Below are positions 5,271 to 59,638 of a stretch of DNA of 64,000 nt, piece by piece. The notes under the pieces were generated by a model. The model ran no database searches. It had not been told where the DNA came from and saw only the letters and a program-made list of their open reading frames with translations. The position numbers were made by a program, and so were the translations under genes. Location: contig NZ_JYFC01000002.1 in NCBI RefSeq assembly GCF_000938265.1, forward strand, positions 124,001 to 188,000, in the 5' to 3' direction. Origin of the DNA: Agreia bicolorata. GTDB lineage: Bacteria > Actinomycetota > Actinomycetes > Actinomycetales > Microbacteriaceae. Within the stretch, counting starts at the first letter, position 1; each line of letters opens with the position of its first letter.

Positions 5271-5338
5271 TAAAGTCACATCACAACACAGGCACACGCG
5301 GGTTCACGGACGAATCGAAAGACGAGGTCAACGACGAC

Positions 5339-6136
5339 ATGTACGCCATAGAGCGCCATCAGCAGATCGGCGAAAGCATCGGTGCGCGGGGCCGTGTCAC
5401 CGTCGCCGAGCTCTCCGAGCGATTCGGCGTCACGCCCGAGACCGTGCGACGAGACCTTGACCTTCTCGAGCAGCAGGGTGTGCTGCAACGAGTGCACGGC
5501 GGCGCTGTCGCCGGATCGAAGATCAGCCTCGCGGAGTCGACCGTCGCTGTGCGCTCGGACAAGGCGCGCGACTCCAAACTCGTGATCGCTCGCGCGGCCC
5601 TGGGAATGATCGGGGAGTCGTTCCGCGGCTCGATCCTCATCGACGCGGGCACAACGACCGGCGCGCTGGCCGAGTTGCTGGCCGATTGGACCCCGTCGGG
5701 CGGTGTCTTGGGCGGCCATCCACTGACCATCATCACCAACTCCGTGCCCATCGCTGCGCTGCTGCACCTCAACCCGGCCATCGACCTGCACCTGCTCGGC
5801 GGCAGCGTCAGAGGCATCACGAGCGCCGCGGTCGGCGCGTCGACCATCGAACAGCTCGACCGGCTTCGCCCCGACATCGCCTTCATCGGAGCCAACGGCG
5901 TGAGTGCCGGTTTCGGCCTGAGTACTCCTGAAGAGAGGGAGGCGGCGGTCAAGGCCGCGATGATCCGCCGCTCACGCCGCTCCGTTGTGCTCGCCGACTC
6001 GACCAAGCTCGACGAAGAGGCGCTCTACCGCTTCGCGGAACTGCGCGACGTCGACACTCTCGTCTCCGACGTCGACCCCGCCGGAACGCTCTCGGCCGCT
6101 CTCGACGCAGAGGGCGTGGAGGTGATCGTGCCGTGA
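5339..6136 (+). CDS. DeoR-family regulator of the fructose operon
   Basis: 265 residues. The N-terminal DeoR helix-turn-helix is MYAIERHQQIGESIGARGRVTVAELSERFGVTPETVRRDLDLLEQQGVLQRVHGGA (given here only for orientation by its parts: VTVAELSERF, TPETVRRDL and VHGGA). The C-terminal DeoRC sugar-phosphate sensor follows, with ILIDAGTTTGALAELL, the GGSVRG strand and IGANGVSAGFGLSTP. ATG 5339 was chosen because the longer frame upstream runs through the leader. The stop overlaps the fruK start (GTGA), so it is the first gene of the fruK-fruA-ptsH operon. Its effector is probably fructose-1-phosphate, by analogy with FruR proteins. Confidence 0.9.
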   Translation: MYAIERHQQIGESIGARGRVTVAELSERFGVTPETVRRDLDLLEQQGVLQRVHGGAVAGSKISLAESTVAVRSDKARDSKLVIARAALGMIGESFRGSILIDAGTTTGALAELLADWTPSGGVLGGHPLTIITNSVPIAALLHLNPAIDLHLLGGSVRGITSAAVGASTIEQLDRLRPDIAFIGANGVSAGFGLSTPEEREAAVKAAMIRRSRRSVVLADSTKLDEEALYRFAELRDVDTLVSDVDPAGTLSAALDAEGVEVIVP

Positions 6137-7122
6137 TCGTGACCCTCACTGTGAACCCCTCGTTCGACCGCACCGTCGAGCTCGATGCTCCGCTCGAGCG
6201 CGGCCAGGTGCAGCGTGCCGTCGTCACCGGGCAGGAGCCCGGCGGCAAGGGCGTGAACGTCTCGCGGGCCCTGCATGCGGCCGGATGCGACACCCTCGCC
6301 ATACTGCCCGGCGCGTCGACTGACCCGCTGGTCGTGGCGCTCGAGGCGTCGGGCATTCCGACGGCGACCGTGTCGATCGACTCGCCCATCCGCTCGAACA
6401 TAACCCTGGCCGAGCCCGATGGAACGACCACCAAGCTCAACGACCCGGGCGTGCACCTCTCGGAGGCCGTCGTCGCCGAGCTCATCGATGTGGTCGTGGC
6501 GCAGTCCGCGTCTGCGTCATGGCTCGTGCTGGCCGGCTCCGTGCCGCCCGGGGTGGCCGACACGTTCTATGCGACGCTCGTGCGTGCCGTGCGAGCGTCG
6601 CGCGCCGCGCCGCGCATCGCCGTCGACAGCTCGGGTGCGCCCCTGGCGGCTCTTGTCGCCTCCGGCGAGAGGGTCGACCTGATCAAGCCCAACGCCGAGG
6701 AGCTGCTGCAGCTGGCTGAATCGCAGGGTCTCGACACCGGTTCTGCGACCCACGAGCAGCTTGAGGCCGATCCGGAACTCGCGGTCTCGCTGGCGCAGGC
6801 GCTGCTGTCTCCAGCTCTCGGCGCGGTGCTCGTGACTCTCGGTTCACACGGTGCGGTGCTGGTCGACGCTGAGGGGGCCTGGCGTGCCCCGGCTCCTCGG
6901 ATCGTGGCCCGCAGCACTGTCGGGGCGGGCGACTGCTCGCTCGCGGGTTATGTACTCGCAGACCAGCGGGGTGACCTCCCTGCCGGACGCCTCGCCCAGG
7001 CGGTGGCCCATGGTGCCGCCGCTGCCTCACTCCCCGGCACGACAGTGCCGACGCTCGAACAGACACATCCAGGCGACATCGTCGTCACCACGATTCCGCG
7101 CATCGCCGCGGGGCGAATCTAA
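6133..7122 (+). CDS. fruK: 1-phosphofructokinase
   Basis: 329-residue PfkB-family kinase that converts fructose-1-phosphate, the product of the adjacent PTS permease, to fructose-1,6-bisphosphate. Signatures are the start VTLTVNPSFDRTVEL, the substrate loop GGKGVNVSRALHAAG, and the C-terminal PfkB motif STVGAGDCSLAGYV with catalytic Asp. The GTG start at 6133 overlaps the regulator stop by 4 nt. The next gene follows after a 16 nt gap with a good ribosome site. The alternative 6-phosphofructokinase/tagatose kinase is unlikely given the operon. Confidence 0.95.
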   Translation: MIVTLTVNPSFDRTVELDAPLERGQVQRAVVTGQEPGGKGVNVSRALHAAGCDTLAILPGASTDPLVVALEASGIPTATVSIDSPIRSNITLAEPDGTTTKLNDPGVHLSEAVVAELIDVVVAQSASASWLVLAGSVPPGVADTFYATLVRAVRASRAAPRIAVDSSGAPLAALVASGERVDLIKPNAEELLQLAESQGLDTGSATHEQLEADPELAVSLAQALLSPALGAVLVTLGSHGAVLVDAEGAWRAPAPRIVARSTVGAGDCSLAGYVLADQRGDLPAGRLAQAVAHGAAAASLPGTTVPTLEQTHPGDIVVTTIPRIAAGRI

Positions 7123-7138
7123 ACAAAGGAGAACAAGG

Positions 7139-9187
7139 ATGTCTTCACTCATCACCCCCGGGCTGGTGATCCTCGACGAGGATCTCGGCACCGACCGCGC
7201 CGCCGTCATCAGGCGCCTCGCCGAGTTGGTCACGGCATCCGGTCGCGCCAGCGACACCGAGGCGCTGTTCGCGGACGCCTGGGCGCGCGAAAGCAAGACC
7301 GACACCGGAATCCCGGGTGGAATCGCAATTCCGCACTGCCGTTCGACCGCGGTGCTCGAGCCGACCCTGGCCATGGCGCGACCGGCGCCCGCGGTCGACT
7401 TCGGCGCATCCGACGGCCCCGCCGACATCATCTTCTTCATCGCCGCCCCGGATGGCGCAGACCAGGCGCACCTCGTGTTGCTGTCGAAGCTTGCGCGTTC
7501 GCTCATCAAGCCCGAGTTTGTGACCGCCCTTCGCGAGGCGCCGAGCGCCGAGGCGATCGTCGAGCTTGTCGATGGTGCGCTTGCCGACGAGCCGGCCCCG
7601 GCGGCCGCACCTGCCGCGCCTGTTGCTGCGGCCACAGATGCTCCCGTTCCGGATGCTGCGGCCCGGCCCATCCTCGTGGCCGTCACCGCCTGCCCGACCG
7701 GCATCGCGCACACCTATATGGCCGCCGACTCGCTCGTGGCCGCGGCCAAGCGTGCCGGAGCGGAACTGCATGTCGAGACGCAGGGATCATCGAGCGTGAC
7801 GCCGCTCGACCCGGCCGTGATCGCCAGCGCGGTAGCCGTGGTGTTCGCGGTCGACGTCGACGTGCGAGACAAGGGGCGGTTCGCGGGCAAGCCCGTCGTC
7901 CAGTCGCCGGTCAAGCGCGGCATTGACGAGCCCGACAAGATGATCGCCGAGGCCCTCGCCGCGGCCAACGACCCGCAGGCGCGACGCGTCTCGGGAGACG
8001 GCGCCGCGGCATCCACCGGCACCGCGACCGACGAGCACGTGGGCCAGAAGATCAAGCGCTGGCTGCTCACCGGCGTCAGCTACATGATCCCGTTCGTGGC
8101 GGGTGGCGGTCTGCTGATCGCCCTCGGCTTCCTGCTCGGCGGCTACCAGATCAGCGACCACGCGAAGGACATCATCCTTCAGAACAGCCTCTTCAACCTG
8201 CCGGATGGTGGGCTGGGCACGTATCTGGGCGCGGTGGCGTTCGCCATCGGAGCCGCGTCGATGGGCTTCCTAGTTCCCGCGCTCGCTGGCTACATCGCCT
8301 ACGCGATCGCCGACAGACCCGGTATCGCGGTGGGCTTCACCGCCGGCGCTGTCGCTCTTCTGATGAACGCCGGATTCCTGGGCGGTCTCGTCGGAGGTCT
8401 GCTCGCCGGATTCATCGCCTGGGCGCTCGGCCGACTGCAGGTTCCTCGCTGGCTGCGCGGTCTGATGCCCGTGGTCATCATTCCGCTCGTCGGCTCGATC
8501 TTCGCATCCGGCCTCATGGTCATCGTGCTGGGCGGCCCGATCGCGCTCCTGATGACCGGCCTCAGCGATTGGCTGTCGTCTCTCACGGGTGCCAGCGCCA
8601 TTATCTTGGGACTCCTCCTCGGAATCATGATGGCCGCCGACCTCGGTGGGCCCATCAACAAGGTTGCGTACGCCTTCGCCGTCGCCGGGCTCTCGGCGGG
8701 CTCGATCACGAACCAGGCGCCCTGGCAGATCATGGCGGCCGTTATGGCCGCGGGAATGGTTCCGCCGCTGGCGCTTGCCTTCGCCACCGTGCTCGACAAG
8801 AAGCTGTTCAGCCTCGCCGAGCGCGAGAATGGCAAGGCCGCGTGGCTGCTCGGCGCCGCGTTCATCTCGGAGGGCGCGATTCCGTTCGCGGCCGTCGACC
8901 CGCTGCGCGTGATCCCCGCCGGAATCGTGGGCAGCGCCCTCACCGGGGCGATCGTGATGGGCACCGGCGTGACCTCGCAGGCGCCTCACGGAGGCATCTT
9001 CGTGTTCTTCGCCATCGGCAACCTCACCATGTTCATCGTGGCGATCCTCGCCGGAACAATCGTCTCCGGCCTGCTCGTCGTCGCTCTCAAGCGCTGGGTG
9101 CGTCGCCGACCTGTCGAGGGCTCCGCTGTCGGCGACGCCGCACAGTCTTCGACCGCTCGTGTGGGCTCCCCTGTAGCGGCCCGCTGA
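7139..9187 (+). CDS. fruA: PTS fructose-specific EIIABC component
   Basis: A 682-residue fused permease that takes up fructose and phosphorylates it at C1. EIIA comprises residues 1 to about 150, with the phospho-His in IAIPHCRS. An Ala/Pro linker leads to EIIB at about 175-270, with the phospho-Cys loop VAVTACPTGIAHT. EIIC at about 300-660 is a multi-spanning membrane domain with the fructose-family stretches MIPFVAGGGLLIALGF and ADLGGPINKVAY. ATG 7139 follows AAAGGAG at 8 nt spacing. The A-B-C order is the common actinobacterial form. Enzyme I is not in the window and must be encoded elsewhere. Confidence 0.95.
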   Translation: MSSLITPGLVILDEDLGTDRAAVIRRLAELVTASGRASDTEALFADAWARESKTDTGIPGGIAIPHCRSTAVLEPTLAMARPAPAVDFGASDGPADIIFFIAAPDGADQAHLVLLSKLARSLIKPEFVTALREAPSAEAIVELVDGALADEPAPAAAPAAPVAAATDAPVPDAAARPILVAVTACPTGIAHTYMAADSLVAAAKRAGAELHVETQGSSSVTPLDPAVIASAVAVVFAVDVDVRDKGRFAGKPVVQSPVKRGIDEPDKMIAEALAAANDPQARRVSGDGAAASTGTATDEHVGQKIKRWLLTGVSYMIPFVAGGGLLIALGFLLGGYQISDHAKDIILQNSLFNLPDGGLGTYLGAVAFAIGAASMGFLVPALAGYIAYAIADRPGIAVGFTAGAVALLMNAGFLGGLVGGLLAGFIAWALGRLQVPRWLRGLMPVVIIPLVGSIFASGLMVIVLGGPIALLMTGLSDWLSSLTGASAIILGLLLGIMMAADLGGPINKVAYAFAVAGLSAGSITNQAPWQIMAAVMAAGMVPPLALAFATVLDKKLFSLAERENGKAAWLLGAAFISEGAIPFAAVDPLRVIPAGIVGSALTGAIVMGTGVTSQAPHGGIFVFFAIGNLTMFIVAILAGTIVSGLLVVALKRWVRRRPVEGSAVGDAAQSSTARVGSPVAAR

Positions 9188-9238
9188 CCCCTTTTCGAAT
9201 CAACACATTTTCTAATCAACACAGAAACGAGACATCGC

Positions 9239-9508
9239 ATGCCAGAACGCAACGCAACCATCGCCAGCCGCGTCGGACTTCACGCCCGCCCCGCCTCCGT
9301 CTTCATCGAGGCGGTCAAGCGCCAGCCCGTGAAGGTGACCATCTCGAAGGGCGGCAGCACGCCGCTCGACGCCGCGAGCATCCTGTCGATCATGAGCCTG
9401 GGCGCCGCGAACGGCGACATCGTGACCCTCGCAGCCGAGGGTGACGGCGCCGAGGCCGCGCTCGAGGAACTGGCCACGCTGCTCGAGACCGACCTCGATG
9501 CCGAGTAG
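9239..9508 (+). CDS. ptsH: Phosphocarrier protein HPr
   Basis: 89 residues. It carries the phosphoryl group from enzyme I to EIIA. The phospho-His motif GLHARPAS is at residues 13-20 (His15), and the regulatory-Ser region is ASILSIMSLGA. It is the last gene of the fructose operon, 51 bp after fruA. Its presence here suggests that HPr is induced with the fructose system. Confidence 0.95.
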   Translation: MPERNATIASRVGLHARPASVFIEAVKRQPVKVTISKGGSTPLDAASILSIMSLGAANGDIVTLAAEGDGAEAALEELATLLETDLDAE

Positions 9509-9520
9509 GCGTCACTGAAT

Positions 9521-9586
9521 GCACTGAAGTGCGGAGAAGGGCCGCTTCGATCGAAAAGGAAGCGGCCACTCTCCGCACTTCAGTGC
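9521..9586. terminator. Long convergent (bidirectional) terminator hairpin
   Basis: A nested inverted repeat between the converging ptsH and HxlR genes. The outer arms GCACTGAAGTGCGGAGA (9521-9537) and its exact complement (9570-9586) pair over 17 bp. An inner stem GGCCGCTTC (9540-9548) pairs with GAAGCGGCC (9559-9567) around a 10 nt loop. No long T tract is present, so it may act as a bidirectional terminator or RNA 3'-end stabiliser. Confidence 0.8.
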
Positions 9587-9593
9587 GTGTGGG

Positions 9594-10235
9594 TCAGGCA
9601 GCGAGGTGGAACGTGCTCGCGAAGCGACCGAGCAGTTCTCCACGACCGCGGAGCACCTCGACCTGGCCGGTCTCGATGGCACGCCGCGGGGCAAGCTCGC
9701 CCGAAATGAGTCGATGGATGGCCGGGCCTGTCGCGAACGCGATATCGACGGGCCCCTCGCCGCCCGAGACGTCGAGGGCTGAGCCGTTCACCCTGATGAA
9801 CAGTTCTGCGTCACCCAAGCGCGCTGCATACGCTGTGGCCGGCAACTCCAGCGCCACCGCCGGCTGGAAGGCCGACCGCAGATCCATGATCATCGACGCG
9901 GGCGTGATCACTTGCTCGTCACGCGCCTCGCCCATGGCCTTGAAACCCCACGCGCCGAGTGCGAGCACCACCGGTTCGAGCTCCCGACCATAGGGCGTGA
10001 GTTCGTACACGATCACGCGCGAGCGGGGCGCCCGGCGAATCACGCCGGCCGCCTGCAGCTCTTTGAGCCTGGCCGCGAGAATGTTGCTCGGAATGCGCGG
10101 AAGCCCCGCGGCGAGTTCGCCGTAGCGGCGCGGTGCGACGAGCAGGTCACGCACGATGAGCAGCGCCCAGCGCTCGCCGATGAGTTCGACGGCGCGCGAG
10201 ATGCCTGAGTACTGCCCGTAATCTCGTGCGGCCAT
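9594..10235 (-). CDS. HxlR-family transcriptional regulator
   Basis: 213 residues. The winged-helix core is at about 8-95: AVELIGERWALLIVRDLLVAPRRYGEL, NILAARLKELQAAGVI and YELTPYG, the standard HxlR pattern. A C-terminal extension of about 100 residues resembles an SCP2/sterol-carrier-like ligand domain (FIRVNGSALDVSGGEGP), giving a longer protein than the usual 110-120 residue HxlR. ATG 10235 is used because the upstream in-frame ATG would lie inside the VOC gene. It starts 5 bp after the VOC stop, so the two form an operon. Confidence 0.85.
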   Translation of the reverse strand: MAARDYGQYSGISRAVELIGERWALLIVRDLLVAPRRYGELAAGLPRIPSNILAARLKELQAAGVIRRAPRSRVIVYELTPYGRELEPVVLALGAWGFKAMGEARDEQVITPASMIMDLRSAFQPAVALELPATAYAARLGDAELFIRVNGSALDVSGGEGPVDIAFATGPAIHRLISGELAPRRAIETGQVEVLRGRGELLGRFASTFHLAA

Positions 10236-10240
10236 TGACC

Positions 10241-10684
10241 TCAGGCCTGCTCGGCCTGCGGGTTCGCGGCGGCCTCCGGGCCCTGCTCCGCAGCGACCGG
10301 GTCCATCCAACCGAACTCGATGAGGTTGCCGTCGGGGTCGGTGATCTGGCGCTGATACATGAAGCCGTAATCGGATGCCGGCTGCGGCTCGGTGCCGCCG
10401 GCCGCGAGACCGTTCGTCACGGCTTCATCGACCGCGTCGCGGCTGTCAAGGAAGATGGCGGTCGACACTGACGGGTTGACCGCGTTGTCGCCGATCGGCA
10501 GCTTCGTGAATGTCTGGAAGAACTCGCGCACCAGGATCATGAAGTAGTTGTGGCCGTCTTCGACGACGACGCACGCGGCGTTGTGATCGGTGAACTTGGG
10601 ATTGATGCTGAACCCGAGCGACGTGTAGAACGTCTTGGCGCGCTCGAGATCGGTGACAGGCAGGTTGACGAACATCGACTTCAT
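10241..10684 (-). CDS. VOC (glyoxalase-fold) family protein
   Basis: 147 residues. The N-terminal strand MFVNLPVTDLERAKTFYTSLGF and the C-terminal module QITDPDGNLIEFGWMDP form the paired beta-alpha-beta units of the vicinal oxygen chelate fold, close to the lactoylglutathione-lyase-like YaeR/PhnB subgroup. A tail of about 20 residues is Ala/Glu/Gln-rich. AAGGAG lies 8 nt upstream of ATG 10684. It is co-transcribed with the HxlR regulator. The substrate is unknown. Confidence 0.85.
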   Translation of the reverse strand: MKSMFVNLPVTDLERAKTFYTSLGFSINPKFTDHNAACVVVEDGHNYFMILVREFFQTFTKLPIGDNAVNPSVSTAIFLDSRDAVDEAVTNGLAAGGTEPQPASDYGFMYQRQITDPDGNLIEFGWMDPVAAEQGPEAAANPQAEQA

Positions 10685-10782
10685 TGTGGAGCTCCTTGAG
10701 ATACGCGTGGGGTAGCAATGAGTTGATACTTGCAAAAAACAAGTAAGCCGTCAAGAGTCGATTATCGACTGCTTCGAAGAGA

Positions 10783-11760
10783 TCAGAAGCCCTCCGGGTT
10801 TCGCGGCGTGTACGGCGAGGTGAGGTGCTCGAGCTCGGACTCGCTCAGTTCTATGTCGAGCGACGCGATGGCATCGTCGATGTGCTTCTGCTTCGTTGCG
10901 CCCACGATGGGCGCGGTAACGGCCGACTGCTGGCGAACCCAGGCGAGGGCGACCTGGGCGCGCGCGACGCCGCGCTCGCCCGCGATGCCGGCCACGGCAT
11001 CCACGATCGCACGATTCGACGAATCGTCAGACGAGTAGAGGGTGGCCCCGAAGAGGTCTTTGCCCGTGCGCTCGGTCTCGGCATCCCAGTCTCGGGTGAG
11101 CCGGCCGCGCGCCAGCGGCGACCAGGGCAGCACGCCCACCTTCTCATCGATGCAGAGCGGGTGCATCTCGCGCTCCTCCTCGCGCTGCAGCAGGTTGTAC
11201 TGGTCCTGCATCGAGACGAAGGGCGTGAGACTGTTCACCTCGGCGACTCGCTGCGCCTTGGCGAACTGCCACGCCCACATCGACGAGGCGCCGATGTAGC
11301 GCACCTTGCCTGACCGAACGAGGTCGTGCAGGGCGGTCATCGTCTCTTCGATCGGGGTCTCGGCGTCCCAGCGGTGGATCTGGTAGAGGTCGACGTGGTC
11401 GACGCCGAGGCGCCGCAGGCTGTCGTCGATGGCCGACATGATGTGCACCCGCGACAGGCCCCCGCGGTTGGGCGAGTCGCCCATGCGACCGTGCACCTTG
11501 GTGGCGATCACCACGTCGTCGCGCTGGGCAAAGTCGGCCAGGGCGCGGCCCACGATCTCCTCGCTCGAGCCGTCGGAGTAGACATCCGCCGTATCGAAGG
11601 TCGTGATGCCCTGTTCGATGGCCCGGCGGATGAGTGGGCGGCTCGTCTCCTCGTCGAGGGTCCAGGCGTGGTTGCCGCGATCGGGCGTGCCGAAGCTCAT
11701 GCATCCGAGCACGACCTCGCTGATCTTCATTCCGGTGTTGCCGAGGCGTGTGTAGCGCAT
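10783..11760 (-). CDS. Aldo/keto reductase
   Basis: A 325-residue NADPH-dependent (beta/alpha)8 oxidoreductase. The catalytic tetrad is visible: Asp and Tyr in FDTADVYSDGSSEE, Lys in VVIATKVHG and His in LYQIHRWD. The cofactor region VAWVRQQSAVTAPIVGATK lies near the C-terminus. This matches the AKR11/YajO-like group of putative aldehyde reductases. It appears monocistronic, and the substrate is not deducible. Confidence 0.9.
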   Translation of the reverse strand: MRYTRLGNTGMKISEVVLGCMSFGTPDRGNHAWTLDEETSRPLIRRAIEQGITTFDTADVYSDGSSEEIVGRALADFAQRDDVVIATKVHGRMGDSPNRGGLSRVHIMSAIDDSLRRLGVDHVDLYQIHRWDAETPIEETMTALHDLVRSGKVRYIGASSMWAWQFAKAQRVAEVNSLTPFVSMQDQYNLLQREEEREMHPLCIDEKVGVLPWSPLARGRLTRDWDAETERTGKDLFGATLYSSDDSSNRAIVDAVAGIAGERGVARAQVALAWVRQQSAVTAPIVGATKQKHIDDAIASLDIELSESELEHLTSPYTPRNPEGF

Positions 11761-11878
11761 GGTTCGAGGTTACTGCGAGGGTATGGATCTGGGCCTGCGC
11801 CCCTACACTTTCACCGCCCCGAGTGAGAGACCGCGGCCGTCTGAGTGCGCTCGCCCGCCGGCCGCTAGGGTCAGTCGG

Positions 11879-12574
11879 ATGAAGGCAGTGATTCCCAGGA
11901 TCGTCGCCGTCGTGTCGATCGTCGGCGCCGCGGCGGCCGTCGGTGCGCTGCTTGTGCGGTGGATCGGTTATGCGACGGGAGGCGCCATCGACGTCTGTGG
12001 ATCCGAGCGATGGACTCCCTGGACCGTGCAGTACGAATCGACCGGCTCGACTCCGGTGACGGTTGGATTCGGTCTCACCCCTCTCGGGTTGAGCTGCTCT
12101 TCGGGTGGCAACGTCACGTATCCCGACGAGCCGCTCGCCTCGCACCTTGTCGTGCTGGCGCTGATTCTCGTTGTGCTCGCCGTCGCGCTGCTTGTGAGCC
12201 CCGCTTCGTCGCACCCGCGATTCTTCGCCTGGACTGTGGCGATCTCGCTGTGCGCGGCGGGCGTCGCCGTGCCCGCCGGACTCGGCACCGCCGCGTACGC
12301 GATCTCGTTCGCGAAGGCAGGATGGATCGACTGCGGGGTTCCGCCGGTGGTTGTCGTCGGGCGTGGTGCCATCGAAGCGGTCCATGCGTGGTTGACGGTG
12401 TTCTCTGTGGTTCCGACCGGACCTCTCTGCACGTTTGCTTCCCCAGCCGGCGATGTCGCCGTGTTCGAGGGCGATGTGGCGTTCGGCTCCGTCTTTGTGG
12501 TCGCGCTTGCTGTCGCTGCGGCCTTCGCGATCCTGGCGGCCCGATCGAAGCGGAACTCGGCAGGCAGGCGCTAG
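11879..12574 (+). CDS. Four-helix membrane protein of unknown function
   Basis: 231 residues. The N-terminal membrane segment is IVAVVSIVGAAAAVGALLV. An extracytoplasmic loop with two cysteines (CGSERWTPW, LSCSSGG) follows, then helices at about 85-110, 118-145 and 200-222. A second loop contains WIDCGVPP and PLCTFASP, so disulfides are likely. ATG 11879 is preferred. The longer upstream frame has no ribosome site and crosses the divergent AKR start. A TAGGGT box 7-12 nt upstream suggests a very short leader. I do not recognise the family. Confidence 0.65.
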   Translation: MKAVIPRIVAVVSIVGAAAAVGALLVRWIGYATGGAIDVCGSERWTPWTVQYESTGSTPVTVGFGLTPLGLSCSSGGNVTYPDEPLASHLVVLALILVVLAVALLVSPASSHPRFFAWTVAISLCAAGVAVPAGLGTAAYAISFAKAGWIDCGVPPVVVVGRGAIEAVHAWLTVFSVVPTGPLCTFASPAGDVAVFEGDVAFGSVFVVALAVAAAFAILAARSKRNSAGRR

Positions 12575-13644
12575 CGGGCGAGCACCAGGCAGGTGGGGGA
12601 GCCGACCCCGAGTGAATCGACGGGCTCGCCGATCAGGCCGGTCGCGGCATCCAGTGCGAATGTCGTGACCTCGTTCGAGCGCTCGTGGGCCACGCGCAGC
12701 AGCCCGTCGTGAACCAGGTGGTGCCTCGGCCAGTCGCCGCCCGACGGCGATGCCTCGAGTGGGTGCGCGCCCTCGTTGTCGATGCTCAGCACGGCGATGC
12801 GGTTCGAGCCCCTCACACCCACATAAGCGCGGGTCGAATCGGCCGACAACTCGATGTGAGCCGCCGTGTCGCCCTCGGCCGCGCCGCCCTTGATCGCCGG
12901 GGTCTGGTGCACGACGTCGAATCCTGCGTCGTCGTTCGGCGCGAGCGTGAACACCTCGACCGAGTATTCGGTCACGACCAGCACTCGTCCGTCCTGGTGC
13001 AGCGCGAGGTGCCTCGGCCCGGACTCGAACGGCAGCGTCACGAAGCCCGCCCGCACGAGTCCTCGAAGGGGGTCGTGGGTCCAGATGCGCACGACGTCGA
13101 GTCCCAGGTCGGTGGTGAGGATGCGTCCGTCGGGCAGGGTGAGGCTCGCGTGGGCGCGCGAGGGTCGCGCGGTTCCGAGCGCCGGATACGCGGGGTTGCG
13201 GTGGGCGTGCGGGTCGCGCGCGGCGGGGGCGATCGTTCGCGAGACGATGCCGCCCCGGCTGTCGAGGCCGAAGAGGATGACTTGGCCGTCGCCCCAGCAG
13301 GTGACGATCGCGTAGCGTCCGCGCGGGTCGACGGCCACGTGGCATCCGGCATCGCCCGTCGACCAGGCGTCACCGAGAGGCTCGAGGGTCGGGCCGAGCC
13401 CGTCGGTCTCCGCGTCGCCCACCTTGTAGGCCTGCAGAACACCGGCGGCCTCGAATACGGCGTAGAGGACGGGCGCCGTCGGGTGTGTCGCGAGGAATGA
13501 CGGCGAGGCAGCCTCGGCAGCGGTGCCGAGCGATTCGAGGGGGCGCCCCACGGCGGCGTCGAGCAGCTCTATGCCCACGCCGGAGCCACCGGAGTCGGAG
13601 GTGTAGGAGCCGGCCCAGAGGTAGGTACGCGCGTCGACGGTCAC
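12571..13644 (-). CDS. Lactonase family (YbhE-type seven-bladed propeller) protein
   Basis: 357 residues with the repeating blade pattern of the 6-phosphogluconolactonase YbhE family: WAGSYTSDSGGSGVGIELLD, SFLATHPTAPVLYAVFE, CHVAVDPRGRYAIVTCWG, ELSADSTRAYVGVRGSNRI and GDWPRHHLVHDGLLRVAHE. It probably hydrolyses a sugar lactone, possibly 6-phosphogluconolactone. I place the start at GTG 13644 because the first blade begins immediately after it. The in-frame ATG at 13767 would put 41 basic residues over the MarR operator. It is divergent from the MarR gene, and its 3' end overlaps the convergent membrane gene by 4 nt. Confidence 0.85.
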   Translation of the reverse strand: MTVDARTYLWAGSYTSDSGGSGVGIELLDAAVGRPLESLGTAAEAASPSFLATHPTAPVLYAVFEAAGVLQAYKVGDAETDGLGPTLEPLGDAWSTGDAGCHVAVDPRGRYAIVTCWGDGQVILFGLDSRGGIVSRTIAPAARDPHAHRNPAYPALGTARPSRAHASLTLPDGRILTTDLGLDVVRIWTHDPLRGLVRAGFVTLPFESGPRHLALHQDGRVLVVTEYSVEVFTLAPNDDAGFDVVHQTPAIKGGAAEGDTAAHIELSADSTRAYVGVRGSNRIAVLSIDNEGAHPLEASPSGGDWPRHHLVHDGLLRVAHERSNEVTTFALDAATGLIGEPVDSLGVGSPTCLVLAR

Positions 13645-53380: not shown

Positions 53381-54133
53381 ATGCCTGACGGGCATACTGA
53401 GCGGGTGGACGATCGACGACGAACAGTGTTCCAGACCAGTCTCATGAGCGCGCTTCTCGATGGCGTGTACGACGGCGACCTGACGGTGGGTGAACTGCTC
53501 GAGCACGGGGACTTCGGTCTCGGAACGTTCAATGCGCTCGACGGCGAGATGCTCGTGCTCGACGGGGTGTGTCATCGGCTGCGGGCCGACGGATCCGTGG
53601 AGCGAGCATCCAATGATGATCTGACGCCGTTCGCCGTGGTGATGCCGTTCGAGCCGGTGACCGGATTCGACATCACCACGCGCATGTCGCGCGCAGACGT
53701 GGTGGCGCGCATCATCGAGCTCGAGGACTCGCAGAACTACCTGTTCGCGGTGCGGGTGCGCGGCCGCTTCGAATCGGTCGTGACGCGCACGGTCAGGCGG
53801 CAGGAGAAGCCGTATCCGCCGATGCGCGAGGCGGTGAAAGACGAGGCGATCGTCACCTTCGAATCGATCTCGGGAACGGTCGCGGGCTTTCGCACCCCGC
53901 TGTACGAGCGGGGGATCGGTGTTCCCGGCGGACACGTGCACTTCATCGACGACGAGTTGTCGACCGGAGGGCACGTGCTCGACTTCGTTCTGGAACACGG
54001 ACGCGTCGACATCTGCAAGGGTAGTGACCTGCAGTTGAGGCTGCCGCTGAGCACGACGTTCGGGGAGGCCGACCTTGACCCTGCCGACCTCGACGACCAG
54101 GTGCGCAACGCGGAGAACCGCTCGCCTCGGTGA
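53381..54133 (+). CDS. budA: Alpha-acetolactate decarboxylase
   Basis: 250 residues. It converts acetolactate to acetoin. Family features are VFQTSLMSALLDGVYDGDLTVGELLEHGDFGLGTFNALDGEMLVLDG (key parts FQTSLMSALLDG and FGLGTFNALDGEM), the zinc-ligand region GGHVHFIDDELSTGGHVLDF and DICKGSDLQLRLP. GTG 53405 is an alternative start. No acetolactate synthase or butanediol dehydrogenase is adjacent, so acetoin formation may serve pyruvate overflow or branched-chain balance. Confidence 0.92.
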   Translation: MPDGHTERVDDRRRTVFQTSLMSALLDGVYDGDLTVGELLEHGDFGLGTFNALDGEMLVLDGVCHRLRADGSVERASNDDLTPFAVVMPFEPVTGFDITTRMSRADVVARIIELEDSQNYLFAVRVRGRFESVVTRTVRRQEKPYPPMREAVKDEAIVTFESISGTVAGFRTPLYERGIGVPGGHVHFIDDELSTGGHVLDFVLEHGRVDICKGSDLQLRLPLSTTFGEADLDPADLDDQVRNAENRSPR

Positions 54134-54149
54134 TCTTGCCATACCCGCG

Positions 54150-54228
54150 CGCGGCGAATGTTGCCCGCAGCGACGGATGTGCCCGGGCGACCGGCAACAT
54201 CCGTCGCCCGGGGTAACGTGCGTCGCAG
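54150..54228. repeat. R4 palindromic repeat, copy 2 (inverted relative to copy 1)
   Basis: A perfect 11 bp dyad GCGACGGATGT (54170-54180) and ACATCCGTCGC (54197-54207) around a 16 nt GC-rich loop, flanked by CGAATGTTGCCCG. It is the inverted counterpart of 48658-48723. It lies at the left edge of the STAND-gene region, just after the budA stop, and may terminate that transcript. Confidence 0.8.
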
Positions 54229-54532
54229 CCTTGTGGAGCCTGTGTCGCAGTATCCCAGGGCCGAGGATTGCTTGGGCCAGTCAGTAGTTGTTTGGGCGAG
54301 TCAGTAGTTGTTTGGGCGAGCCGGTGGTGCTTCTACACGCGAGCGACTGCTTCTGTACACGCGGAGCGCAGATGACGAGCGGCTGCGCACGATTGCGCGG
54401 CACATTGGGGAACTGCGACGATGAGTCCTGATCTGATGCTCTCCCCAACGGATCGCCGACGCCGCCCGAGCCCTGAAAGATGAACACAGCCCGAGACGCG
54501 TCTACACGTCAACTGATCTTGAGAGGTTTCTG
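54229..54532. other. Gene-free leader region of the STAND gene
   Basis: About 300 bp without a supportable gene. It contains the 20 bp direct tandem repeat at 54281-54320 and two near-repeats of TGCTTCTACACGCGAGCG at about 54328 and 54348. The last 100 bp should hold the promoter, and GAGAGG (54521-54526) is the ribosome site. Confidence 0.6.
54281..54320. repeat. 20 bp perfect tandem duplication
   Basis: TCAGTAGTTGTTTGGGCGAG occurs twice head to tail (54281-54300 and 54301-54320), preceded by the partial match GATTGCTTGGGCCAG. It is AT-richer than its surroundings. Confidence 0.8.
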
Positions 54533-57500
54533 GTGATGATTCCTTCGGTACCGGTCGATGCGACGCAGACCGGAGCGCGAACGCGAGCCCGATTCCGGTA
54601 TCAGGATCGGGTGATCGCACTCACCGTGATACGACTTTTGAACGAGGAATCCCTCGAGTCCGTTCTGGTCGAGTACGGGACCGACGTTACTCTCGAGTAC
54701 ATCGGCGGAGACGTCGAGCTCGTGTCCATCAAATCTCGCGATCCCCACCAACAGGGTTCCATCGGATGGACATGGGATGCATTGAAAAAACAGCATGTCC
54801 TTCATCACCTCTATCAGCTCTGGCGCACTCACCCGCAGGTGAAAACAACGGTCTATTCAGAGGCGCCGCTTCAAGGCGACGCCGTCCGACTGACCGACCC
54901 GGCGACCAAGATCTCGCCCGAGATGCTCTCCCGTGTTGCAAAGCACATCGAAGCGTCGAAAGAAGAGGCGGCAGCGTTCCTTTGCTCCTTCGCCTGGGGG
55001 CCTCCGACGCCCCGCGACTCCGATCTTCTCGTGATCGCGGAACAACAGACCCGCCGATATCTGGAAAAGGAGGGACGTGATCCGAGCGGTGCGGTCGCCG
55101 CGTGCCAAGCCCTGATCGAGGCCATCGAACATGCGAGCACAGGAGACCCGCGAAGAAATCCCTCCGGGCGCCCCACCCGCCGGCAGGTGGACGATGCGCC
55201 ATCCGTTCTGGCGCAGGCACGGAGACTGACTGCCAAGTCGCTTCGGGTCATCGTGCTCTCCGCCGCTGAGGAAGCGACAAAGAAGCGCGCCCGACTGACA
55301 TCCAGCCCCACGTTTGTCGGGCATCCGGAACTCATCACCGACATCGTGAATGCGCTCCGGGATGGTCAGACGTGCGCTCTGGTTGGTCCCCCCGGTGCGG
55401 GAAAGACCAGCATCGCATTCGAAGTCGCGGCGAGATCAAGTCCCCCGTGGGCAGTGCACTTTATTGACGCATCCGGCGCGACAGAACTGGCGTTGTCGCT
55501 CGCCTCCTTCACGGGTGTATCGCCGGAGTCAGACGCCCCTCTGGCACAGACGGCAGCATTCCCCGGAGATGGCGCCGACCTCCTCATCATCGATGGAGTG
55601 ACCGACCCCGAGGTCATCGCCCCATACCTGCGTGCAACGGGCGCAGCCCGAGTGCTAATCACGTCGACGAGCAGCCGGCTGACGGCCAACGTGACCGTGT
55701 TTCCTGTCGAAGGCCTGTCGGCCGAGGACACCTTTGAGTACCTCTCCAAGAACTGGCCCGACGCCGTTGATCTCGCCGAGGACCTGTACAGAGAAACCCA
55801 TGGAAACGCGCTAGCCCTCAGTCAAGCCTCGGGCACGGCGCGCCTTGCTGGCCTGAGCCCGGAGGTCTACCTCCAGACATTGGCGACCTCACCCGTGGCT
55901 GCACTGTCTCTGCGAGGTGAGCGCCCGTCCGATCACACCGTCGCGAAGTCGATCATGCTCGCACTTCAGGTCCTTCAGACGCACTCACCGCAAGCATTCG
56001 ACCTCCTCACCGCCCTGAGCGTCTTCGGGAACGGCCCAGTGGACGTCAGTAGATTCGCCGACAACACCATCCGAGTATTCCTCCCTGGGCGAGATTTCCT
56101 CGAGAAGACGTTCCTTCAGAGCCAACCGCCCACCACCCCGCTGCTCGAGACGCTCCGCGACCCCGCCGGCCGAGCAGAACTCACCGCCGCGCTAGTCGCC
56201 GCCAGCCACGTGCGATGCGTCGGCGAATCTGTGCTTGTCCACCCGCTCGTCCGACGCCTTAACCTTGCGACGGCGGACGACCTCACAATCCCTCTGGAAC
56301 TCGCGATCGGTTCGTTCGACATCTTCGGGCAAGGAACGCCTCGGCGTGGCGGCACCTTCGACGAGCTGCGACTCATCGACGGCGTCCTTGCTCGCTGCAC
56401 TGAACGCGGAATCCTTGGCCCCGCCTATTACCGGGCAGCGCAGCATGCGTCGCTGCTTCTCTCGTCCATCGGTGCTCGCGATCGCGCCCTCGAACTCGCG
56501 GTCGAAGCACACGACTGGGTGCTGCGATCGATAGCCAAGGGCCAAGCGCCAGATGAAATGCGCTTCTTCGCCGATAACGCATACGCGTTGTCACTCAGCA
56601 GCATCGGCAACCACGACGAAAGCGCACAGCTACTTCTCCGGTCGGTCGAGGACATCAATCGCAAGTTGACATACCTGCTCCGCAAGCGCTGGATCACCCG
56701 CATCCCACCCAAAGATGCCAACACAACGAATGCCCTGGCACACGCCAAACTCGAAGCAGTTGCCCACCTCGTTCGTATCGCGGCTGAGTCGGGTGATGCC
56801 TCGCTTGCAGTAGCGATTCAGCTTCCCAGCGACGAAGAAGCCGAGCAATGGCCTGGCGCCACCGAAAGGGCGACGTATTGGACAGCGCGAGCGCGATGGG
56901 AATGGTTTTTTGGGGATCCTGATGCGGCCACCATTGCGGCCCACAACGCTGTCCAGCTTGTCCGGGACGGGCGGGTGCGGAGGGATGTTGCAGCCGAAGC
57001 TCTTGCAGTCGCGTCAGGCAAGTTCCACAACCAAGATCCGCAGGTGCGCGCCAGCCTCGCCGAGGAAGTCCTCAGTACATACACTCAAGAATTCGGTGAC
57101 GGGGCTAAAGACACCATCGAGTACATCGTTCTACTGACCGAGTCCGCCGACGCGCACATCGACAACGGCGACACCGTCGCCGCAAGGCGAGTCGTAGAAG
57201 AAGCCCACCAGCTTTGGACCGAATCATTCGCAGACGACAAGTTCTTGTACGGACGAGTGCTCGCAGCTCGAGGACGGCTGGCCCTCACCGAGGCCATTCA
57301 TGAAGCCGAATCTGTCGCTCGGGTGCTCTCATGTCTAGTCCGGGCTCGCGTAGATCTCCGCACAGCGGTGACGATAGCTGCGGAGATGCCAGGGAGATTC
57401 CCGACGGACCGCGCGTCGATCCTCATCAACTACGCCACCACCCTGGGTTACCTGGAATCCTTTCCCGAAGCAATCGAGGCGGCGGAGCTTGCCTTAGAAC

Positions 57501-57601
57501 TGGATCGGCAGCGCTTCGCCGAAGGTCACCCCGAGATCACCACCGACAAGCAGGTGCTGGAGGGCCTCCACGCGATGCGCGCCACCGCGACACGGCTCTA
57601 G
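54533..57601 (+). CDS. STAND/NB-ARC NTPase with N-terminal Cap4/DUF4297-like nuclease segment and C-terminal helical repeats (putative antiviral NLR)
   Basis: 1022 residues from GTG 54533, with ATG 54536 next in frame. Residues 15-115 resemble the PD-(D/E)xK nuclease of Cap4/DUF4297: Glu47/Asp51 in VEYGTDVTLEY, then VELVSIKSR with Lys67 (SxK in place of the usual QxK/ExK), and WTWDALKKQHVLHHLYQLW. Residues 260-440 form an NB-ARC module, with Walker A GPPGAGKTS (Lys291), Walker B DLLIIDG (Asp354), sensor RVLITSTSSR and GLPLA-like GNALALSQA. About 600-1010 is all-helical with TPR-like repeats (ALSLSSIGNHDESAQLLLRSV, YLESFPEAIEAAELALELD). The gene is visibly AT-richer than its neighbours, alone in its orientation, and next to tRNA-Gly, all consistent with transfer. 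The likely role is phage sensing with abortive DNA cleavage. This is inference. Confidence 0.8.
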   Translation: MMIPSVPVDATQTGARTRARFRYQDRVIALTVIRLLNEESLESVLVEYGTDVTLEYIGGDVELVSIKSRDPHQQGSIGWTWDALKKQHVLHHLYQLWRTHPQVKTTVYSEAPLQGDAVRLTDPATKISPEMLSRVAKHIEASKEEAAAFLCSFAWGPPTPRDSDLLVIAEQQTRRYLEKEGRDPSGAVAACQALIEAIEHASTGDPRRNPSGRPTRRQVDDAPSVLAQARRLTAKSLRVIVLSAAEEATKKRARLTSSPTFVGHPELITDIVNALRDGQTCALVGPPGAGKTSIAFEVAARSSPPWAVHFIDASGATELALSLASFTGVSPESDAPLAQTAAFPGDGADLLIIDGVTDPEVIAPYLRATGAARVLITSTSSRLTANVTVFPVEGLSAEDTFEYLSKNWPDAVDLAEDLYRETHGNALALSQASGTARLAGLSPEVYLQTLATSPVAALSLRGERPSDHTVAKSIMLALQVLQTHSPQAFDLLTALSVFGNGPVDVSRFADNTIRVFLPGRDFLEKTFLQSQPPTTPLLETLRDPAGRAELTAALVAASHVRCVGESVLVHPLVRRLNLATADDLTIPLELAIGSFDIFGQGTPRRGGTFDELRLIDGVLARCTERGILGPAYYRAAQHASLLLSSIGARDRALELAVEAHDWVLRSIAKGQAPDEMRFFADNAYALSLSSIGNHDESAQLLLRSVEDINRKLTYLLRKRWITRIPPKDANTTNALAHAKLEAVAHLVRIAAESGDASLAVAIQLPSDEEAEQWPGATERATYWTARARWEWFFGDPDAATIAAHNAVQLVRDGRVRRDVAAEALAVASGKFHNQDPQVRASLAEEVLSTYTQEFGDGAKDTIEYIVLLTESADAHIDNGDTVAARRVVEEAHQLWTESFADDKFLYGRVLAARGRLALTEAIHEAESVARVLSCLVRARVDLRTAVTIAAEMPGRFPTDRASILINYATTLGYLESFPEAIEAAELALELDRQRFAEGHPEITTDKQVLEGLHAMRATATRL

Positions 57602-58131
57602 CGACCAACCTTTTTGCGCAGCATGTGATGAGCGTGTTTGAACGACCCAGCTGCTCGCTCGCTGCCACGAATGAGTCGTCCATCGACGATCACGTCACAC
57701 CGATTTGAGTCTCGAGATTGAGATTGAGATTGAGATACCGCACGGTGTCGTGAACACAAAGGTCGCGGCTCGATATCGTTCTCGACGTGGTGTGCTTCGC
57801 GGCCCAACGACTCCATCGGCAACCGTCCGCTCATCCCAACGAACGCCCTGACGGTCGAAGTGGACTTCACCTCCCCGTCCTCGAGGAACCAAACGCGCCC
57901 GGCATCCGCAATACGGGATAGCCCGCATCACCGGCCGCACGACATCCCGATGCACCACCAAAGCAATCGCCCGGACACTCACATGAGCGCGGGAGCAAGT
58001 TCATGCTTGCGGGGACCAGCTTGCTCGGCGCGGGGCATCAGGGCGCGACCAAACCCGGATCACAATCACCGATTCAAGGCTGCTCAAGCCCACTCATGCG
58101 ACGAGAAGCGCCGAATATTGCGACAGAACCG
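57602..58131. other. 530 bp region with no supportable gene; degenerate coding-like sequence
   Basis: Lies between the STAND gene and the tRNA. Minus-strand open stretches at 57598-57870 and 57695-57982 (the first containing GREAHHVENDIEPRPLCS) sit in overlapping frames, without ribosome sites or recognisable domains. They look like decayed coding sequence. A short (GAGATT) microsatellite lies at 57714-57736. The composition remains less GC-rich, like the STAND gene. Confidence 0.5.
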
Positions 58132-58205
58132 TGGAGCGGATGACGGGAATCGAACCCGCGCTATCAGCTTGGGAAGCTGAAGTTCTACCATTGAACTACA
58201 TCCGC
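58132..58205 (-). tRNA. tRNA-Gly (anticodon CCC)
   Basis: The minus strand folds as a full cloverleaf. The acceptor GCGGATG pairs with CATCCGC. The D-arm has GTTC/GAAC with the AATGGTA loop. The anticodon stem TCAGC/GCTGA encloses TTCCCAA (anticodon CCC). The T-arm is GCGGG-TTCGATT-CCCGT. The discriminator T and an encoded CCA (58132-58134) follow. The 3' end faces the STAND gene region, the side where islands usually integrate. Confidence 0.95.
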
Positions 58206-58270: not shown

Positions 58271-59638
58271 TCAGAGTCGCGCGACCTCGACCACGATGTC
58301 GTCGACAGCCTTGTCGTGCCAGCCGCGCAGCTGTTTCGTCTGATCCCAGTAGACGGATGCGTAGGGCAGCCAGGCGGTGAGGATGCTGCCGATCGTGAAG
58401 GCTGCGAGAATCACCTCGCGCAGCAGCGCTCGGCCGAATCCGATGGGGCCGGGCGACGAGAATCCGGTCACCTCGATGCGCATGATGCGCTTGCCGGGGG
58501 AGGCGCCGCGGGTGCCGACGAGCCAGACCACGACCAGGAGCCAACCGACGTTCAGCGCGGCCACGCCAATGAACGCCAGCGCGATGAGGAGTCCACCCGC
58601 GTCCGGGCTCGACGACGCCGACGACACCGCCGGCCACACGAAAAGCAGCGCGGCGGCGGCTGTGATGAGGATAGAGATGGCCCTGTCGATGAGGAACGCC
58701 CCCGCGCGTCGACCGATCGTGGCCGGCGTGCGCCCCGCGACCATCGTCGGAAGCGGGCGCCATCCCGGATCGCCCGGCGGCACCGGGTATCCGGCCGGGG
58801 CCGGGTACGTGGCAGGCACGGTAGCCGGGTATGCGGGCGTCGTGGCCAGCGGCGTCGGGGTGCGCGCCACGGTCTGTTCGTGCGGCGCTCCGGTAGGTGC
58901 CGATACCGGATGCGACGGGTCGGGTGCCCACTCGAACACCGGCACGGCCGCTGGCCGGGCGGGCGGCTCCGCCAGCGCGGGCGGCATCGAGACGACGAGT
59001 CCGGCGTCGGCGGTAAGCGCGGGAGCGGGCTCCTCGGCGACGGGCTCCGCGGCAACCTGCTCCGCGACGCGGGGCTGTGTCACGGGTTCGGGAGCCGGAC
59101 CTGCATCCGACAGCGAGAACTCGATCGGCTCGGGGCGCGGATCGTCGGCGCGAACTCCGAAGCGGTCGGCGAGCTGAGTGTCGACGATCTCGCCGAGCGC
59201 TTCGAGCAGATCGACGATGCGCTCCTGCACCACAGGATCTCCGCTCGTCAAGGCGATCGACGCGCCCCGCGCATCCGACTCGACGGCAGAGGCGACGGCA
59301 GAGCCCACGGCGGCACCGGCGTCCCTCGAACCGCCGACCACGCGCATGCAGCTAACCCAGAGTTCATCGACCGTGCTCACGGTGAGCTTGTCGACGATCT
59401 CGCGCCCGATGCGCACGCGGGCGTCGCTGCCGAGTCGATCGAGAAGCGCGGGCCATGCCGAGCGCTGCGACTCGTCTGCGAGCACGGGGTATCGGCCCGC
59501 ACGGATCTCGCCGAGCACCACGTTCTGCACACTCGTCAATAGAGCCGCCCAGAGCGGGTCGGATTCGAGCCCCGCGAACTCTGAAGGAAGTGTCGACCGC
59601 GCCGAGAGCACCCGGGAGAACAGGTCGACGGCATCCAT
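58271..59638 (-). CDS. RDD-family membrane protein with long Pro/Ala-rich linker
   Basis: 455 residues. The N-terminal helical soluble domain at about 1-165 (WAALLTSVQNVVLGEIRAGRYPVLADES, KLTVSTVDELWVSCMRVVGG) is followed by a Pro/Ala/Val-rich linker at about 165-315. The C-terminal RDD domain at about 320-450 has RRAGAFLIDRAISILI, RGASPGKRIMRIEV and the RDD third helix LLREVILAAFTIGSIL. RDD proteins can be small transporters. The N-terminal domain is not one I recognise. It lies 65 bp downstream of the tRNA gene on the same strand orientation. Confidence 0.85.
   Translation of the reverse strand: MDAVDLFSRVLSARSTLPSEFAGLESDPLWAALLTSVQNVVLGEIRAGRYPVLADESQRSAWPALLDRLGSDARVRIGREIVDKLTVSTVDELWVSCMRVVGGSRDAGAAVGSAVASAVESDARGASIALTSGDPVVQERIVDLLEALGEIVDTQLADRFGVRADDPRPEPIEFSLSDAGPAPEPVTQPRVAEQVAAEPVAEEPAPALTADAGLVVSMPPALAEPPARPAAVPVFEWAPDPSHPVSAPTGAPHEQTVARTPTPLATTPAYPATVPATYPAPAGYPVPPGDPGWRPLPTMVAGRTPATIGRRAGAFLIDRAISILITAAAALLFVWPAVSSASSSPDAGGLLIALAFIGVAALNVGWLLVVVWLVGTRGASPGKRIMRIEVTGFSSPGPIGFGRALLREVILAAFTIGSILTAWLPYASVYWDQTKQLRGWHDKAVDDIVVEVARL

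Follow-up and report, generated by a model that had tools for sequence, protein, structure and literature searches.

Cap4-type effectors on STAND proteins are already known from Avs3 (AVAST type 3; PDB 8dgc). Avs proteins recognise phage proteins, oligomerise and activate their N-terminal nucleases via pairing, and pairing of the Avs3/DUF4297 domain has been described (PMC12198126). AP-ATPase-TPR conflict proteins with assorted effectors, including REase-fold ones in related systems, have been surveyed (PMC7159879, 2020; PMC8195603, 2021), and FxSxx proteins are part of a peptide-processing system (PMC7159879). Nucleases of similar fold are also found under other kinds of control. Lamassu uses three genes, with an SMC-like ATPase switching the nuclease LmuA in trans, Hachiman AbpA/HamA is controlled by a helicase (AbpB/HamB) and CBASS Cap4 by cyclic-nucleotide binding (SAVED), neither of the latter two by a STAND NTPase.

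The present analysis concerns a 1022-aa protein encoded in a 64,000-nucleotide stretch of Agreia bicolorata DNA, hereafter the window. Like Avs3, it places a Cap4-class N-terminal nuclease, a central STAND NTPase and a C-terminal helical-repeat sensor in one protein, but it is half as long (1022 vs about 2000 aa), its NTPase is closest to those of CED-4, APAF-1 and plant NB-ARC proteins, its nuclease motif is SxK, and among the loci found the arrangement occurs in Actinomycetota only. It has the nuclease subfamily of LmuA at its N-terminus, SxK included, but with a fused STAND-TPR switch, and the NTPase-TPR chassis of FxSxx_TPR/FxsT and actinobacterial TIR-STAND-TPR proteins, which are without the Cap4 nuclease domain or have TIR in its place. 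With AbpA/HamA and Cap4 the likeness is in the nuclease-domain fold, AbpA having QxK rather than SxK. The PADLOC set includes Avs models, and none of these (AVAST types 1–5) matched in a PADLOC v2.0.0 scan at E<=1, in which LmuA, HamA, IetA, mad8 and TRIP13 were listed. What distinguishes the protein is an SxK Cap4-like nuclease on an AP-ATPase/TPR chassis, unmatched by the PADLOC Avs models at that threshold. No description of this combination of SxK Cap4-like nuclease, AP-ATPase and TPR was found in the open-licence literature, nor was a Cap4-like, STAND and TPR architecture found in the DefensePredictor and Avs5 papers.

An original prediction, made from the letters of the window, had proposed a 1022-residue single-gene antiviral NLR with a Cap4-like nuclease, an NB-ARC core and TPRs. 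The open reading frame proved intact at the predicted coordinates (Table 1) with a GTG start, an ATG at 54536 being as good a start as the GTG at 54533, with GAGAGG upstream at 54521–54526. All the quoted motifs were found at the predicted residues: E47, D51, VELVSIKSR at 61–69 (K67), GPPGAGKTS at 285–293 (K291), DLLIIDG at 349–355, RVLITSTSSR from 373 and GNALALSQA at 424–432. They are not chance resemblances, as the protein matches the PF14130, PADLOC LmuA and FxSxx_TPR profiles and residues are invariant across 23 divergent family members. The three-part architecture is likewise backed by HMMs, alignment and two structure models.

Table 1. Positions of the gene, its domains and motifs, and the flanking features in the window
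Feature	Position	Strand	Evidence or remark
Acetolactate decarboxylase, left flank	53381..54133	+	kept in sister species
Segment without counterpart here in the sister species examined	54134..58131	+	two different genes here in six of the seven
Cap4-like nuclease / STAND (AP-ATPase, NB-ARC) / TPR protein, 1022 aa	54533..57601	+	HMMs, alignment, model
Predicted N-terminal Cap4/LmuA-type nuclease domain and helical extension, residues 17-255	54581..55297	+	PF14130, PDLC03848, AlphaFold, PDB matches
Invariant E47 and D51, predicted metal-binding acidic residues	54671..54685	+	23-sequence alignment
Active-site strand E62-L-V-S65-I-K67-S-R69 (SxK)	54716..54739	+	S65, K67, R69 invariant
STAND NTPase module, AP-ATPase/NB-ARC type, residues 252-621	55286..56395	+	NF040586; CED-4, RPP1, APAF-1 structure matches
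Walker A GPPGAGKTS, K291	55385..55411	+	G285, G288, G290, K291 invariant
Walker B DLLIIDG, D354-G355	55577..55597	+	L350, D354, G355 invariant
C-terminal helical-repeat (TPR) superhelix, putative sensor, residues 609-1021	56357..57595	+	TPR_12/TPR_2; model hairpins
tRNA-Gly(CCC)	58132..58205	-	foreign segment ends on the right at its 3' end
RDD-family membrane protein, right flank	58271..59638	-	kept in sister species

The N-terminal segment is predicted to be a nuclease domain of the Cap4/LmuA type with a PD-(D/E)xK fold. Pfam Cap4_nuclease (PF14130) matched residues 13–86 above its cut-off (E=2.4e-6, 28.3 bits vs 26.2), and the PADLOC model for LmuA, the Lamassu effector, matched residues 14–153 of the full protein (E=2.6e-9), the isolated domain (PDLC03848, E 1.6e-10) and 23/23 family N-termini; of the families for which the original prediction had suggested an HMM search, Cap4 was matched and Avs was not. 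A PDB sequence search with the single protein gave P-loop noise only. An AlphaFold model of residues 1–256, built on 20 family sequences, had a mean pLDDT of 85.7, and its 19 Foldseek matches in the PDB at E<=0.001 were all to Hachiman AbpA, Lamassu LmuA, CBASS Cap4 or Avs3. Alignment with VIA-align gave Z 16.0 for AbpA/Hachiman (8zue), 14.6 for AbCap4, 14.5 for LmuA and 13.3 for Avs3, with much lower scores for unrelated restriction enzymes, and all PDB neighbours with Z > 12 were nucleases of the Cap4/LmuA/AbpA/Avs3/DUF-HerA class. These matches point to the Cap4-class nuclease fold, and the Foldseek check did not return the unrelated N-terminal fold that would have spoken against the prediction but the Cap4/LmuA/HamA class.

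The active-site strand of this domain departs from the usual pattern. In the alignment of 23 divergent family members E47, D51, V64, S65, K67 and R69 were invariant and E62 nearly so; of the catalytic D...(D/E/Q)xK pattern, D51 and K67 are thus invariant, yet Ser stands in for D/E/Q. AbpA has Gln at the position of S65 (FVQVK), as do other PF14130 proteins of the phylum (TQIK in L074, QQIK in L077 and L078), which suggests that Ser is a trait of a subfamily and not an oddity of one protein, and actinobacterial LmuA with LmuC and LmuB partners has the near-identical strand ELVSVKHR. The count of invariant Ser is partly ascertained, Ser being present in one of the two peptide patterns used to find relatives, and it was therefore re-examined with plasmid tblastn matches found without that pattern, where SxK occurred in 4/6 fetched regions and QxK in 2/6. 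The Ser-x-Lys motif is real and conserved, yet not private to the window protein. The original prediction had seen in it a reason to suspect an undescribed subtype. As SxK is common to actinobacterial Lamassu LmuA and Mokosh-like fusions, it marks the nuclease subfamily rather than this protein, and the case for distinctness moves to the AP-ATPase/TPR chassis.

The central module has the Walker A, Walker B, sensor-1 region, GxP-like motif and NBD-HD-WHD fold of STAND NTPases. NCBIfam FxSxx_TPR (NF040586) matched residues 258–575 (E=5.5e-30, below the model's equivalog cut-off), and K291 of Walker A and D354-G355 of Walker B were invariant in an alignment of 13 STAND-fused sequences. The predicted NB-ARC core was found with all its motifs, but Walker B reads DG, as NACHT proteins usually do, where classical NB-ARC has DD, and for that reason the NTPase is no textbook NB-ARC. 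At E<=1 the Pfam NB-ARC model did not list the window protein; it did match two relatives. In the full-length model (pLDDT 78, pTM 0.60, with uncertain relative placement of the domains) residues 252–621 aligned with CED-4 at Z 24.5 (rmsd 3.1, 305 residues), with the plant NLR RPP1 at Z 20.9 and with the APAF-1 apoptosome at Z 20.3. The predicted helical-repeat C-terminus is clear in this model, where TPR hairpins reach residue 1021 and TPR structures align at Z about 17–23, but weak by sequence (TPR_12, E=2.3e-4). The best Foldseek match of the full model was Avs3 (E 9.8e-12), with a low TM-score that indicates a common domain order and not superposition.

Relatives were sought across 84,980 species genomes in a single scan with the N-terminal alignment and two peptide patterns as queries, and the 20 loci recovered all belong to Actinomycetota. 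Searches with exact peptide patterns of the window protein by itself yielded no relatives in genome-contig or viral-contig collections, and there were none among viral contigs with the N-terminal alignment, or in INPHARED phages. The fusion of Cap4-like nuclease, STAND and TPR occurs at no fewer than 13 other actinobacterial loci, some of them fragments only: single genes in L018–L021, L024, L026, L028, L029 (running off the contig end), L033, L034 and L035, and fragments in L002, on a Rhodococcus plasmid and ended by an IS, and L027. L022 and L030 are frameshifted or truncated family copies. In L025 and L031, whose clade also includes L023, the nuclease is instead joined to a protein-kinase-like domain, and in L031 MkoA-like (E 1.1e-108) and MkoB-like (8.7e-12) genes come after the fusion, for which reason the locus is called Mokosh-like. 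The subfamily also occurs in Lamassu-like operons, such as the three-gene operon of L016, where the partners of LmuA match LmuC (5.5e-10) and LmuB (1.1e-91), and an operon with an SxK LmuA lying 3' of a SIR2-HerA pair in L036; plasmid copies L075–L080 have the gene order of the LmuA three-gene operons. In a tree of nuclease domains, to be read with caution because of its long branches, the window protein pairs with the Rhodococcus plasmid copy (100/98), and the pair sits within a clade of STAND and kinase fusions that is itself supported (100/99). L034 and L035 are placed elsewhere and their NTPase region matches other models, so that fusion to STAND probably had more than one origin. L033 adjoins a second NB-ARC-TPR gene, and PADLOC matches among 74 neighbours of ten STAND loci are mainly to restriction-modification.

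The gene is foreign to its genome and lies next to tRNA-Gly. Its GC3 is 69% vs 82–88% for five other window genes, and GC is 61.8% over the surrounding 4.0-kb segment vs 66.1% over the window. It is present in 1/8 species of the genus and 1/350 genomes of the family, and the N-terminal and NTPase regions were matched in 2/395 genomes of the class, one of them its own. Six of seven sister species have 1.2–1.9 kb between acetolactate decarboxylase and tRNA-Gly, encoding a NarL-like regulator (220–230 aa) and a small membrane protein of about 105 aa, neither of which is present at the insertion site in the window genome; the seventh, G007, is rearranged at this site. The best match to the sister NarL-like regulator anywhere in the window genome is 31% identical, indicating that the ortholog was lost. 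Similarity to sister species restarts at the 3' end of the tRNA gene. The left-edge direct repeat of the tRNA 3' end expected from simple site-specific integration was looked for but not found, there being only a 17-of-22 match at 53649. The inserted segment holds no partner gene, which fits the prediction of a stand-alone gene. PADLOC found no further convincing defence gene among the 52 genes of the window (three weak generic matches), which is not a defence island. Membership of Lamassu was considered and rejected, there being no LmuB or LmuC match among those 52 genes and the neighbours being acetolactate decarboxylase, tRNA-Gly and the RDD protein.

It is likely that the protein is a single-gene, Avs-like bacterial NLR acting against phages or plasmids. 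All clear PDB neighbours of the nuclease domain (AbpA, AbCap4, LmuA, Avs3) are known defence effectors, and the joining of such a domain to an ATP-driven switch and a repeat sensor in one gene probably makes a self-contained alarm. In favour of this reading, too, the neighbours of relatives include a type I restriction system, a TrwC relaxase, an FtsK/SpoIIIE-family gene and, in the case of the Lamassu form, SIR2-HerA. Weighing against it are the Ser at the place of an acidic residue or Gln in the nuclease motif, the absence of a further convincing defence gene from the window, the DG form of Walker B, the weak TPR matches by sequence and the uncertain placement of the domains in the full-length model. 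By analogy with Avs, the TPR superhelix would hold the protein inactive and bind an invader-derived or invader-induced ligand; binding would lead to nucleotide exchange in the AP-ATPase and hence to oligomerisation, bringing the N-terminal nuclease domains together in pairs. The paired SxK nucleases would then cut DNA and so stop phage or plasmid replication, the infected cell probably being arrested or killed as the cost of DNA cleavage.

Other readings deserve weighing against the Avs-like one. The same switch and nuclease could serve as a device for selfish maintenance or for exclusion of plasmids and mobile elements, aimed at competing elements or carrier stability and not chiefly at lytic phages. 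We consider this rather unlikely yet credible, as the closest relative sits on a Rhodococcus plasmid, STAND-fused L019 lies near a TrwC relaxase and L035 near an FtsK/SpoIIIE-family gene, the window gene has foreign codon usage and a position at a tRNA, and Lamassu forms with the same nuclease subfamily occur on Streptomyces plasmids; but STAND relative L026 adjoins type I restriction genes, together with an AIPR gene, and neither an antidote gene nor an integrase was recognised in the inserted segment 54134..58131. It is less probable that the N-terminal domain, though related to Cap4, is catalytically dead and serves in DNA binding or signalling, cell arrest coming from some other activity. 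Ser in place of Gln/Asp/Glu two residues ahead of Lys would suit such a role, and some defence proteins do contain nuclease copies that are inactive, as with the HamA-like domain at the C-terminus of AbpA (PMC12278908). Against this, E47, D51, K67 and R69 are invariant in 23/23 family members across three defence contexts, among them complete Lamassu operons with LmuA as effector nuclease, and the protein has no other visible catalytic domain.

Many actinobacterial STAND-TPR proteins are regulators, and the NTPase and TPRs are closest to the FxSxx_TPR family by profile, which would be in keeping with a metabolic or developmental STAND regulator akin to the SARP/AfsR or FxSxx_TPR proteins. Such a role is nonetheless very improbable, since the profile searches revealed neither HTH nor BTAD nor any further DNA-binding domain typical of regulators, a nuclease domain being present instead, and the best of the NTPase relatives examined were not SARP/LuxR regulators, as might have undone the original prediction, but FxSxx_TPR or TIR-STAND-TPR conflict proteins, two of which carry TIR domains. 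The SARP/LuxR reading was accordingly rejected.

If the protein is indeed an Avs-like NLR, bacteria would have in a compact protein of 1000 residues an equivalent of the plant NLRs and of the APAF-1/CED-4 apoptosome, equipped with an effector that cuts DNA. It is possible, though at somewhat short of an even chance, that it represents a distinct actinobacterial NLR class in which an LmuA-type SxK nuclease came to an apoptosome-type AP-ATPase and TPR by effector swapping among three unrelated chassis, namely the SMC/Lamassu, the Mokosh-like kinase-helicase and the NLR. The presence of one effector subfamily under SMC, helicase/kinase and STAND switches makes effector swapping open to domain-exchange tests, and raises the question of whether a Ser-x-Lys nuclease centre is catalytically active. 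The 2023 PADLOC models would class the gene as a stray LmuA fragment and nothing more.

There were several further observations on these loci. Just upstream of the gene, window positions 54151–54217 form a strong palindrome (folding z -3.6), a REP-like element belonging to an intergenic repeat with many matches in G000, G003 and G004 and almost none in other genus members. In three sister species (L058, L061 and L062, from G001, G004 and G005) 24 bp of the tRNA-Gly 3' end recur once or twice upstream, close beside the tRNA gene and at a spacing of 86 bp; these additional copies are a possible sign of repeated traffic at the site and could be scars of repeated insertion or of tandem duplication. 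L020, L021 and L028 encode STAND-fused proteins of about 1280 aa with an extra C-terminal P-loop-like region (GPxxSGRST...IGIDDADSLL). Positions 9974–15266 of L031 and 9953–17716 of L025 hold an SxK Cap4-like/kinase-like fusion, an MkoA-like helicase and an MkoB-like gene, that is, a Mokosh-like arrangement with a Cap4 effector, the helicase gene of L025 apparently split by an IS-like gene. In L036 the SIR2-HerA pair and the Lamassu-like operon occupy positions 5315–12950 of a Rhodococcus sp. defence island. On the Streptomyces plasmids of L077 (1511–7660) and L078 (1394–7666) a 731–772 aa Cap4 (QxK) protein, which in L077 includes a protein-kinase domain, lies directly upstream of a second, Cap4-like operon of three genes whose nuclease N-terminus reads almost the same.
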